A DNA stretch of 50,086 nt. Source: Desulfobulbaceae bacterium. GTDB taxonomy: Bacteria > Desulfobacterota > Desulfobulbia > Desulfobulbales > Desulfobulbaceae. The stretch is from the NCBI GenBank assembly GCA_011389815.1, contig JAABTP010000011.1, forward strand, positions 1 to 50,086, given 5' to 3'. A program made the position numbers and the translations under genes. The number at the start of each line of letters is the position of its first letter. The stretch's first letter is position 1. The notes below the pieces were generated by a model. The model searched no databases and had not been told where the DNA came from. It worked only from the letters and a program-made list of their open reading frames with translations. Shown one piece after another: positions 28,982 to 30,746 of this stretch.

Positions 28982-29356
28982 TTACTGTTGAAGCACCTGA
29001 GCAGTTCTGTATTCTGGTTTCACCGGACAGGAACCAGTGTCCGGGTAGAAGTATACCTCCACCACAAACATCCCGTTTTCCTTTTCCGGCAGGATACGGA
29101 TACGGACATTGCCGTGCAGCTTATCCGTTCCCAGTGATGCATCGGCCTTTTGCAGGATTTCGTTTCCCAAAGCAAAAGCTTCCTCCGGGGTTTTTCCGTA
29201 ATCGCGAATACAGAGTTTGGCACTGCCTGGGCCACCGACAGTGGTTTTGTTGACTTTGAGGTTTTTCTCAGCTGCTGACAAGAGCGACGGGGTGCTGAGA
29301 AAAAGTGCTGTAAGAACGACCAGACTTCCGTTGAATAACCTTTTTGTGATTTTCAT
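28982..29356 (-). CDS. Secreted small protein, paralog A (unknown family)
   Basis: A 124-residue protein with a signal peptide (residues 1-27, ending SAAEKN). The mature part has VNKTTVGGPGSAKLCIRDYGKTPEEAF, AD-rich helix, LHGNVRIRILPEK, FVVEVYFYP and SCPVKPEY; the two cysteines could form a disulfide. It is clearly related to the product at 29910, with the same cysteines and the same order of blocks. I know no named family. The start 29356 is fixed by GGAGGAG upstream. A long leader (about 180 nt) with riboswitch-like structure and a sigma-54-type promoter precede it, so expression is probably tightly regulated. Confidence 0.75.
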   Translation of the reverse strand: MKITKRLFNGSLVVLTALFLSTPSLLSAAEKNLKVNKTTVGGPGSAKLCIRDYGKTPEEAFALGNEILQKADASLGTDKLHGNVRIRILPEKENGMFVVEVYFYPDTGSCPVKPEYRTAQVLQQ

Positions 29357-29392
29357 AATCTCCTCCTGGTATTTTAAAGGAAATAAAAAGCA

Positions 29393-29470
29393 GACAACCC
29401 GGCTGTCTCTCCAGATGAGACCCGTGGCTTTCCGACACCGCCTCACGGCGGCTGTGGCTTTTACAACTTT
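29393..29470 (-). promoter_or_regulatory. GEMM-I-like (cyclic dinucleotide) riboswitch candidate, leader of paralog A
   Basis: In transcript sense: a hairpin CCGCC-GTGA-GGCGG with a GNRA loop (29451-29438), then GGAAAGCCACGGGTCTC (29433-29417), a seven-base loop, and GAGACAGCCGGGTTGTC (29409-29393). The AAAGCCACGGG...GACAGCCGGGTTG pair is the well-known 3' half of the GEMM-I aptamer (c-di-GMP or cGAMP), and a GNRA hairpin before it also fits. The 5' half is atypical: the GGCAAACC segment is not found. It could be a variant or degraded aptamer. It ends about 37 nt before the start codon. Confidence 0.5.
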
Positions 29471-29545
29471 CCAGGGACTTGTGCTACTGCCCCTGACCAG
29501 AAAGTTTGCAGCCCGCTTTGCAAAACTATCGAGCACAACTACCAC

Positions 29546-29564
29546 ATTGCAGGGGCTGTGCCAA
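29546..29564 (-). promoter_or_regulatory. Sigma-54-type promoter of paralog A
   Basis: Minus-strand TTGGCACAGCCCCTGCAAT carries GG (29562-29561) and GC (29550-29549) separated by exactly ten bases, as in the -24/-12 consensus TGGCAC-N5-TTGC. Predicted start about 29537, giving a leader of about 180 nt that holds the riboswitch-like structure. Confidence 0.7.
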
Positions 29565-29696
29565 AACTCAAAAGGCAATGATGGTCCAATGGAAAAGTAG
29601 AGGAAAGTAGAGAAGAAAGGGTAAAAAATATACACCTGCTTACGTAAATGTATTTTTTGCTTTATGGCGTTTTGTACAGAAAATAGTACTTGTCAC

Positions 29697-29711
29697 TGAC
29701 AGAAAATGTCA
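29697..29711. promoter_or_regulatory. Palindromic box TGACA-N5-TGTCA, probable enhancer-binding site
   Basis: TGACAGAAAATGTCA is a perfect 5-5-5 palindrome; an extra TGTCA stands just before it (29691-29695). Its centre is about 143 bp upstream of the GG of the sigma-54 promoter, in the range usual for sigma-54 activator sites. Similar boxes occur at 30558, 30590 and 30732. Confidence 0.55.
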
Positions 29712-29826
29712 AAACTCCTGCTTGTTAAAGTCGAAAAACAGATATTTAAAGTGCTTCCCGCCAAAGTTCAAAACCTGACAGCCAGCCATTTTTATGAATT
29801 GACAGGTGGGTACGTAGCAGATACAT

Positions 29827-29854
29827 ACCCGCTCCTCTGGTAAGAGGGGCGGGT
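29827..29854. terminator. Hairpin between the two secreted-protein genes
   Basis: ACCCGCTCCTCT (29827-29838), loop GGTA, AGAGGGGCGGGT (29843-29854); twelve pairs with one G/T. It lies 56 bp after the stop of paralog B on the minus strand but lacks a T-run there, so termination is uncertain. Confidence 0.4.
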
Positions 29855-29909
29855 GTCTTGTTTATGAGATCACTTGCAATGACGTGAGCAACTTCAAATG
29901 CGGTCCTGG

Positions 29910-30281
29910 TTACTCTTGCAGCAGCTGATATGCCAAATATTCTGGGTTGACCGGACAGGATTTCTTCTTGTCTGGAATTGAGTAGACTTCTACGACAAAC
30001 ATATCCTTTTCCTTTTCCGGCAAAACGCGGATACGCACATTGCCATGCAGCCTGTCTGCTCCTAACAGAGCATCTGCCTTTTCAAGGATTTTTGCTCCAG
30101 CAGCAAAGGCTTCAGCAGGTGTTTTGCCATACTCCCGGATACAGAGTTTAGATGTTCCTGGACCTCCCACCGTGGTTTGGCCAACTTTTAAAGGCTCTTG
30201 GGCAGCAAGTGGAGCTGCGGTAAGGAAATAAGCTGCGAATACGGTCAGGCCAGTTTTGAATAAGGTGCTTGTTGCTTCCAT
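29910..30281 (-). CDS. Secreted small protein, paralog B (unknown family)
   Basis: A 123-residue protein with a signal peptide (residues 1-28, ending PLAAQEP). The mature part repeats the blocks of paralog A: VGQTTVGGPGTSKLCIREYGKTPAEAF, LHGNVRIRVLPEKEKDMFVVEVY and SCPVNPEY. Overall more than half of the mature residues agree by eye. So the pair arose by tandem duplication that included the upstream leader and promoter. Function unknown: small, exported, probably one disulfide. GGAGGAG before the ATG (30281) decides the start. Gene A lies 550 bp further on the same strand with its own promoter. Confidence 0.75.
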   Translation of the reverse strand: MEATSTLFKTGLTVFAAYFLTAAPLAAQEPLKVGQTTVGGPGTSKLCIREYGKTPAEAFAAGAKILEKADALLGADRLHGNVRIRVLPEKEKDMFVVEVYSIPDKKKSCPVNPEYLAYQLLQE

Positions 30282-30300
30282 AATTCTCCTCCTGATGCTA

Positions 30301-30362
30301 GGGGAAAAAGCATTTCCCCCGGTTGTCTCTTTATATTGAGACTCTTGGGTTTTCAGAATATT
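30301..30362 (-). promoter_or_regulatory. Leader of paralog B, diverged GEMM-like structure
   Basis: In transcript sense GAAAACCCAAGAGTCTC, an A/T loop, and GAGACAACCGGGG echo the leader of paralog A (AAAGCCACGGGTCTC / GAGACAGCCGGG). The end GGGGGAAA pairs with TTTTTCCCC just before the GGAGG ribosome site, which would make a competing hairpin. The 5' GNRA hairpin is not visible. A degenerate relative of the first leader. Confidence 0.35.
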
Positions 30363-30406
30363 TTACAACCTGTTTTATCTCGTTGAGCATTTGCTCTTGT
30401 TCCCTC

Positions 30407-30426
30407 TTATACAGAAAGCATGCCAG
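30407..30426 (-). promoter_or_regulatory. Weak sigma-54-like promoter of paralog B
   Basis: CTGGCATGCTTTCTGTATAA has GG (30424-30423) and, ten bases on, GT instead of GC. Position relative to gene and to the upstream box (about 141 bp) matches the arrangement of paralog A, which is the main support. Confidence 0.35.
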
Positions 30427-30557
30427 TACAATATGATGCATGCTGATGAGCAGGGTTGATTGGTAAAAAAAATATGAGAGAGAAAGAAAAAAAATGATAG
30501 CTCTTATTGGATTATGATATATAAAAATATTTATGCAATATTCACATCTTTATAATA

Positions 30558-30604
30558 TGACAAAAAGTGACCTAATATATGAATTTTAATGACAAAAAGA
30601 GACA
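30558..30604. promoter_or_regulatory. Two TGACA-type boxes upstream of paralog B
   Basis: TGACAAAAAGTGACC (30558-30572) and TGACAAAAAGAGACA (30590-30604), 32 bp apart centre to centre (three helical turns). Both share the left half and A-rich spacer of the perfect box at 29697. The surrounding 600 bp (30300-30919) are very A/T-rich and hold no coding frame. Confidence 0.45.
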
Positions 30605-30731
30605 GTATATCATTAATGTGCGAACAATCAGTCATAAAAGGATAGATAATGAATGTTAACAAGTATAAGTTTTTATTTATGTAAATCAATAGAATGATCA
30701 CTTTTATTGTTTATTTTCTTACCTCTTTTTT

Positions 30732-30746
30732 TGACAAAAAATGTCA
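30732..30746. promoter_or_regulatory. Palindromic box TGACA-N5-TGTCA between paralog B and the VanZ-like gene
   Basis: TGACAAAAAATGTCA is a perfect 5-5-5 palindrome, the same as at 29697 except for one spacer base. It could serve paralog B from a distance or the divergent VanZ-like gene. Confidence 0.5.

Follow-up and report, generated by a model that had tools for sequence, protein, structure and literature searches.

Single-base changes in the binding pocket are reported to alter the ligands of type I riboswitches for cyclic diguanylate (c-di-GMP), the class termed c-di-GMP-I or GEMM-I. According to the sections of the literature drawn on here, the exchange C92U let such a riboswitch bind 3',3'-cyclic GMP-AMP (cGAMP; PMC12032345), an RNA with the change G20A binds cGAMP and the double change G20A/C92U binds cyclic di-AMP (PMC7288161); a table of crystal structures includes these mutants of the Vc2 RNA (PMC10671752), and the mutants bind c-di-GMP less well (PMC9049102). 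Riboswitches for cGAMP are described in Geobacter (PMC8835794). The cited part of PMC6456294 treats a serine at the selectivity position as the mark of the Hypr class of cGAMP synthases and links an arginine at the cross-dimer position to an increased production of c-di-GMP. In Geobacter, predicted sites of the activator PilR are cited at 54 sigma-54 promoters, and GTCT elements are called their hallmarks (PMC6058289, in the section used). Here we analyse a stretch of 50,086 nucleotides (contig JAABTP010000011.1; "the window") from a genome of Candidatus Electrothrix, a cable bacterium, where two neighbouring genes, paralogs A and B, code for related secreted proteins. We argue that A is probably subject to a two-step control, by a sigma-54 activator and then by a GEMM-I riboswitch.

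In the explanation that we favour, with a probability of about 0.57, an enhancer-binding protein, perhaps PilR-like, would bind the inverted repeat TGACA-N5-TGTCA (the box) upstream of A and turn on the sigma-54 RNA polymerase approximately 148 bp downstream; pilA and one lipoprotein gene led by a GEMM-I aptamer would be activated likewise. The leader of the A mRNA would then act as a GEMM-I riboswitch, in which the 5' arm of an extra hairpin, CTTTCYGG, has two alternative partners, the 3' arm of the hairpin and the Shine-Dalgarno sequence. Ligand binding would shift the balance towards the hairpin, release the Shine-Dalgarno sequence and thus probably switch the gene ON, while paralog B would retain a weaker version of the transcriptional half, its aptamer being lost.

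The aptamer of A scores 56.3 bits with RF01051 (cut-off 35), at an E-value of 2e-8 over the whole window, and is the only Rfam match above threshold in the 50 kb. A preliminary description of this DNA had recognized the 3' half of a GEMM-I aptamer and a GNRA hairpin in the leader: the class was right, yet the aptamer is complete, and the hairpin, although present, is the P2 arm of the aptamer rather than a separate element. The near-perfect -24/-12 promoter and the perfect box reported there were both recovered, the box at 148 bp, close to the estimated 143 bp. With the model RF03168 (c-di-GMP-I-UAU) the copy in the window scores 64.5 bits and stays below the cut-off of 65.9, which two A orthologs pass (67.7 and 66.8 bits). 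Of the other five A orthologs, four have an aptamer detected by cmscan and one has an aptamer recognized by alignment (G007b; G, L and C numbers are our handles for genomes, loci and contigs).

To number the pocket bases according to Vc2, the junction description in the relevant part of PMC6274999 was combined with the cmscan alignments and mapped onto the columns of RF01051. On this mapping A has the canonical G20 and A47, and U92 in place of the C92 of the RF01051 pocket. RF01051 matches 146 sites in eight Electrothrix genomes, 74 of which were parsed, mostly the best-scoring among the matches listed and the leaders of the protein family; aptamers outside the 74 are found, e.g., at L131, L151, L156 and L172. 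At position 92, 65 of 72 parsed aptamers have C and six have U; in the remaining one, L178, which the parsing missed at this position, C is read by eye. The six with U92 are exactly the A leaders (6/6). The base is not exclusive to A, as a pattern search of all eight genomes and the locus L052 demonstrate. The search yielded ten matches, namely the six A leaders, one further aptamer (L212 in G006) that is followed by no frame of 60 codons, and three chance matches; L052, a GEMM-I aptamer from another genus of the same taxonomic family, likewise has U92 and is combined with a terminator-like repeat.

A second pocket change occurs upstream of paralog C, another member of the protein family. Four of the seven aptamer-bearing C leaders have A20 (own genome, G002a, G004a, G007a) and three have G (G002b, G003a, G006a), while two further C-type genes (G001, G005) have no aptamer upstream. 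The pattern search for A20 returned seven matches, comprising these four aptamers, all of them C leaders, and three chance matches; among the aptamers parsed or found by pattern, none other than the C leaders carries A20, where both patterns detect only their specific sequence contexts. A20, the base of the Geobacter GEMM-Ib type, is present in the own paralog C, and A has G20 instead. With U92 in A and A20 in four C leaders, the two single-base exchanges for which cGAMP binding is reported thus both occur in leaders of one protein family. Even a weakened binding of c-di-GMP may be sufficient, such that c-di-GMP may still be a live ligand.

A candidate for a cGAMP synthase is encoded in the same genome. 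Judged by eye, the guanine-selecting position of its ten GGDEF matches is aspartate in nine and threonine in one, the protein at G000:C222:56504-57739. Orthologs of the threonine-type protein occur in 18 of 73 genomes of the window's taxonomic family, the own one included (8 Electrothrix, 5 of genus g10, 5 of genus g14; E up to 1e-60). All 18 share the motifs GHxAGT and GGDEF, and a methionine follows LTGLWN (LTGLWNMK...GGDEF); in seven of the ten own GGDEF matches the residue after the LTGL-N motif is arginine. Accordingly, the GGDEF (Asp) signature and a cross-dimer residue other than arginine, the latter located by our own mapping, agree with Hypr enzymes in 18/18, and at the position of Ser347/348 of GacA threonine replaces serine in 18/18. 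Because threonine is not serine, the protein is a lead and not a member of the Hypr class. A complete cGAMP circuit would have this Hypr-like protein produce cGAMP, GEMM-I riboswitches of the family turned into sensors twice (C92U in A, G20A in C) on a new 5' anti-Shine-Dalgarno platform, and A placed under the activator of pilA; we consider this picture tentative and, taken as a whole, less likely than not.

Evenly poised is the view that A is an ordinary c-di-GMP riboswitch, where U92 would be drift without consequence for specificity, tolerated with a G.U contact to c-di-GMP retained. The canonical G20 and A47 fit this view, as do the usual aspartate in 9/10 GGDEF matches and the occurrence of U92 outside the protein family, in L212 of Electrothrix and in L052 of another genus; furthermore, U92 could still form a G.U pair with the proposed 5' strand of P1. 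Drift accounts less readily for the retention of U92 in 6/6 A leaders despite diverged promoters and untranslated regions, or for the different pocket change, A20, in 4/7 leaders of the sister branch C.

Apart from the family, the own genome of 4.0 Mb contains 21 c-di-GMP-I aptamers (9-27 per genome in the eight Electrothrix genomes), some of which precede secreted or repeat-rich proteins. Three tandem c-di-GMP-I aptamers, spaced by approximately 130 nt, occur at L156 (G004) and L172 (G007), both in single-contig Electrothrix genomes, and a weak second UAU-type match (G000:C28:5684-5765; 30.1 bits) lies 400 nt after a good aptamer.

The transcriptional half of the proposed control begins with a promoter that follows GG-N10-GC in the context TGGCAC/TGC and obtains 0.91 of the full score of our own consensus. 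The box (start to start 148 bp from the sigma-54 site), the -24/-12 elements, the 5' untranslated region and the aptamer can be aligned across six Electrothrix A leaders (own genome, G002, G004, G005, G006, G007), the leader of G005 being truncated within the box by a contig end. In G002 the box reads TGACG-N5-CGTCA, a symmetric change that preserves the dyad. Searched genome-wide, as the preliminary description had suggested, the exact box recurs upstream of sigma-54-like sites: in 12 of 22 loci examined (8 own, 14 from other genomes) it precedes such a site, called at a loose threshold, that leads into one of four gene kinds. These are pilA, with the exact box 140-143 bp upstream in five of eight genomes (own, G001, G003, G004, G007) and the pilin identified by its N_methyl and prepilin domain; A itself, at 146-148 bp (own, G006, G007; A of G004, seen in the alignment, is a thirteenth case); B-type genes, at 321 bp (own) and 244 bp (G001); and a GEMM-I-led lipoprotein gene, at 164 bp (own) and 170 bp (G005, where the aptamer was recognized by eye from the translated frame). 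The box shared by A and pilA suggests a PilR-type regulon, and from the sequences PilR itself may be the activator. The sharing with pilA would point as readily to pili and surface behaviour as to electron transfer. At L128 (3596-5611), two adjacent genes with lipoprotein signals (by eye) are each led by a GEMM-I aptamer; one product has a CAP domain, and the gene of the other also has a TGACA box and a sigma-54-like site.

Several observations count against such a regulon. The exact box is found at 8 sites in the own genome vs 1 for a backwards control; over the eight Electrothrix genomes, however, its excess over the control is slight (38 vs 29), so that the weight falls on its location before sigma-54 sites, the bare motif showing no enrichment in the genus. 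At the loose threshold, 6/20 strand views that lead into none of the four gene kinds likewise have a sigma-54-like site downstream of the box; at -12 the sites of pilA and B carry GT instead of GC, and those of pilA read TGTA in place of TGCA. Moreover, the box contains TGTCA and TGACA, not GTCT, and matches the description of PilR sites in the cited section of PMC6058289 only in part. The own genome has nine matches to the sigma-54 activator domain, seven of them strong; none of the nine lies on the pilA contig (C188).

Given these points, another NtrC-type activator, unrelated to pili, might bind the box, and its occurrence at pilA might be coincidence or cross-regulation. The supply of activators, none encoded on the pilA contig, would permit this; for the four candidates compared with NCBIfam, none of the best 25 matches listed reaches its cut-off, and TGTCA is not the GTCT hallmark. 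We place this alternative somewhat below an even chance, as box and spacing recur at pilA in five genomes.

The riboswitch half of the favoured two-step control requires an expression platform, which the consensus fold of 72 leaders locates 5' of the aptamer. The fold comprises an extra hairpin, CTTTCYGG...CCRGAAAG, enclosed by a helix P1 of AAGCGGG-type and CCTGCTT-type strands; both elements were derived from the very alignment used to score them, which favours the structure. Each of the nine hairpin pairs is standard in 54-70 of 71 distinct leaders. Overall, 92.8% of the hairpin cells are paired, a value equalled by 0/500 per-pair and 1/500 whole-strand shuffles, slid versions reach 32-64%, and the number of double-change cells (nine) is attained in 15/500 shuffles. 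The seven pairs of P1 are each standard in 42-65 of the 71 leaders, and P1 pairs 77.1% in register vs 25-67% when slid.

The 5' arm and the Shine-Dalgarno sequence vary together: CCAGGAGG-type sequences go with CTTTCTGG, and CCGGAGG- or TCGGGAAG-type sequences with CTTTCCGG. Both partners were parsed in 64 of 74 leaders, which show 36 T-A, 18 C-G, 7 T.G and 3 C.A combinations (Fisher p 1e-7; counted as distinct combinations 26, 15, 7 and 2, Fisher 9e-6); of the ten leaders left out, seven lack a CTTTC[T/C] arm and three a parsed Shine-Dalgarno sequence. The leaders' own pairing energy is equalled by 0/500 permutations. In five of seven other leaders folded, the structure with the arm on the Shine-Dalgarno sequence lies 0-1.7 kcal/mol from the minimum, the energies being given without a random control.

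The platform also has evidence against it. The leaders are related, and consequently the p-values of the arm test are too small and overstate independence, while the leaders it left out include both of those on C105, which belong to the same proposed regulon. The arm-Shine-Dalgarno fold lies 5.8 kcal/mol above the minimum in A, and 6.1 and 8.7 kcal/mol above it in two of the seven others. For P1, the pairing is equalled by 181/500 shuffles; covariation was therefore discarded as an argument for this helix, which rests on its conserved sequence and would only presumably enclose the hairpin. The lack of covariation in P1 and the GTCT mismatch of the box slightly lower our confidence in the two-step control; the odds given to another activator were raised. 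That the 5' arm never touches the Shine-Dalgarno sequence, the hairpin being a stability or protein-binding element and the association being inherited with two leader subtypes, accords with the kinship of the leaders and the clearly more stable hairpin fold in A; it is nevertheless doubtful, because the association runs as base pairing predicts, with a wobble in 7 of the 10 departures from T-A and C-G.

A terminator model for A, in which GACAGCCGGGTTGTC, with a U-run after it, could form a 6-bp hairpin completed by U92, was rejected: it must break the stronger P3, and the terminator hairpin does not appear in the computed folds of the leaders. Inspected by eye, 23 aptamers from other genera have no hairpin of the Electrothrix kind in the 60 nt upstream, and ten of them run into a terminator-like repeat, which is why we propose that Electrothrix swapped termination for translational control.

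Paralog B has lost the aptamer of this arrangement. Rfam finds no riboswitch in its leader up to E 10, and RF01051 does not match above threshold, but the leader aligns to that of A better than 500/500 letter shuffles, with the Shine-Dalgarno region included or not. Since it can be aligned and yet lacks the P2 arm, the B leader is best regarded as a remnant. The E. gigas copy closest to B has no aptamer either and possesses a sigma-54-like site and a perfect box. The preliminary description had assigned a GEMM-like leader to each gene and to B the same order of weaker motifs. For B, the sigma-54-like site (which departs from GG-N10-GC by GT) and the half-sites stood, the aptamer did not, and a perfect box emerged 321 bp upstream. 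Likewise, the double control suggested for both genes is well supported by the sequence for A; for B its sigma-54 half, though weak, is plausible, and its riboswitch half falls away. The coordinates are compiled in Table 1.

Table 1. Positions of the features of paralogs A and B in the window.
Feature	Position	Strand	Remarks
c-di-GMP-I (GEMM-I) aptamer of A, complete	29390..29468	-	RF01051 56.3 bits, RF03168 64.5 bits
Aptamer pocket position 92, U instead of C	29394..29394	-	Vc2 numbering, own mapping
Shine-Dalgarno context of A, CCAGGAGG	29362..29369	-	complementary to 5' arm CTTTCTGG
3' arm of extra hairpin 5' of aptamer, CCCTGGAAAGTT	29465..29476	-	
5' arm of extra hairpin, CTTTCTGG	29497..29504	-	candidate anti-Shine-Dalgarno
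Proposed P1 5' strand, AAAGCGGGC	29508..29521	-	complementary to GTCTGCTTT at the 3' end of the aptamer, no covariation
Sigma-54 promoter of A, TGGCACAGCCCCTGCA	29548..29563	-	conserved in six A leaders
Perfect box of A, TGACATTTTCTGTCA (TGACA-N5-TGTCA)	29697..29711	-	candidate PilR-type activator site
Paralog A, 124-aa secreted protein	28982..29356	-	signal peptide by eye, two conserved cysteines
Paralog B, 123-aa secreted protein	29910..30281	-	sister to E. gigas copy
Remnant of GEMM-I P3 region in B leader	30317..30351	-	P2 missing
Weak sigma-54-like site of B, TGGCATGCTTTCTGTA	30410..30425	-	GT where GC expected
TGTCA half-sites upstream of B	30556..30604	-	30556-30572 and 30589-30604
Perfect box, TGACATTTTTTGTCA	30732..30746	-	321 bp upstream of B sigma-54-like site

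The proteins A and B are 64% identical and belong to a family with four members in the own genome, including C on contig C171 and D on contig C139. In all four, a signal peptide (by eye) and conserved cysteines are accompanied by the motif YGxT...AF...IRxLPxK. A scan of named genomes, which relied on a conserved peptide and might miss the records of the window itself, produced eight loci: six in Candidatus Electrothrix marina, gigas and aarhusensis, one in Candidatus Electronema aureum and one in "Desulfobulbus sp. F5". The F5 sequence matches the G088 protein exactly; G088 falls into genus g10 together with G026, the carrier of the Electronema aureum protein. The homology search proposed in the preliminary description found the proteins in 13 of the 73 genomes of the window's taxonomic family, i.e., in 8/8 of the window's genus and 5/5 of genus g10, and in none of the other 12 genera; within these searches it appears to be restricted to the genera of cable bacteria. 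Pfam, searched up to E 10, gives no family for either A or B, and NCBIfam no match for A. An AlphaFold2 model from ten sequences has a mean predicted local distance difference test (pLDDT) score of 63.9, with higher values in a beta-alpha-beta-beta core at about 49-103, and a structure search with it gave no useful match (best VIA-align Z 4.8, best Foldseek E 0.17). Dodecin and other small alpha/beta proteins score no better (Z about 3) than unrelated folds, and no likeness is claimed.

Where visible, the flanking genes are constant: the window has UbiA and a VanZ-like gene on opposite sides, and UbiA is seen in G002 and VanZ in G001 and G006. A recent duplication of A and B within the genome was rejected, as B clusters with the E. 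gigas copy (support 100/97) in a family tree with long branches and 9/23 forks open; A and B are thus old lineages rather than a recent local copy. Aptamer-less members include three of the Electronema genus and the Electrothrix paralog D (L065, L066, L067, L070). Upstream of the start codon these have a TTGACA-type promoter in common, closely followed by AATGATTAT, which by eye resembles a Fur-type site.

To our knowledge, there is no genetic system for cable bacteria. Outside subscription journals, our literature search found nothing on riboswitches or cGAMP in these organisms, and for c-di-GMP no paper that names it or cable bacteria in title or abstract; the section of PMC11976967 that lists their periplasmic metalloproteins does not name the A-type family. 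The link to extracellular electron transfer raised in the preliminary description gains in focus from the origin of the genome, a cable bacterium, and from the pocket bases of A and C, which the literature associates with cGAMP binding; that the proteins serve this process is a guess. The A aptamer, with its 79 nt, is a short RNA that could help to tell which second messenger cable bacteria use, and A would be a natural occurrence of the pocket change C92U made in the laboratory. The locus further supplies a lead to a second-messenger synthase and to a set of genes tied to pilA through a shared promoter architecture. It also offers a case in which a single genus seems to rely, in its riboswitches, on an anti-Shine-Dalgarno arm upstream, in contrast to the terminator of many relatives.

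Compared to known systems, the promoter region recalls the PilS/PilR-sigma-54 control of pilA, as a sigma-54-like site and a TGTCA-type upstream box are found at pilA; here the scheme, with a putative activator, would extend to a riboswitch-led secreted protein of cable bacteria. The threonine-type protein resembles the Hypr GGDEF enzyme GacA in its GGDEF motif, a residue other than aspartate at the selectivity position and the absence of arginine after LTGLxN, and differs by threonine instead of serine at the selectivity position. With the cGAMP-sensing GEMM-Ib riboswitches of Geobacter the leaders share the fold and, in 4/7 paralog C leaders, A20; paralog A differs by another single-base change (G20/U92), and any likeness in ligand is putative. 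RF03168 has in common with A the 3' end GUUGUC including U92, whereas A has G, not U, at position 20, if we read the "UAU" of its consensus correctly as positions 20/47/92. Finally, A agrees with the c-di-GMP-I riboswitches of RF01051 in its complete aptamer, P2 with a GNRA-type loop, P3, A47 and G20, and departs from them in U92, the extra 5' hairpin and the candidate 5' anti-Shine-Dalgarno arm.

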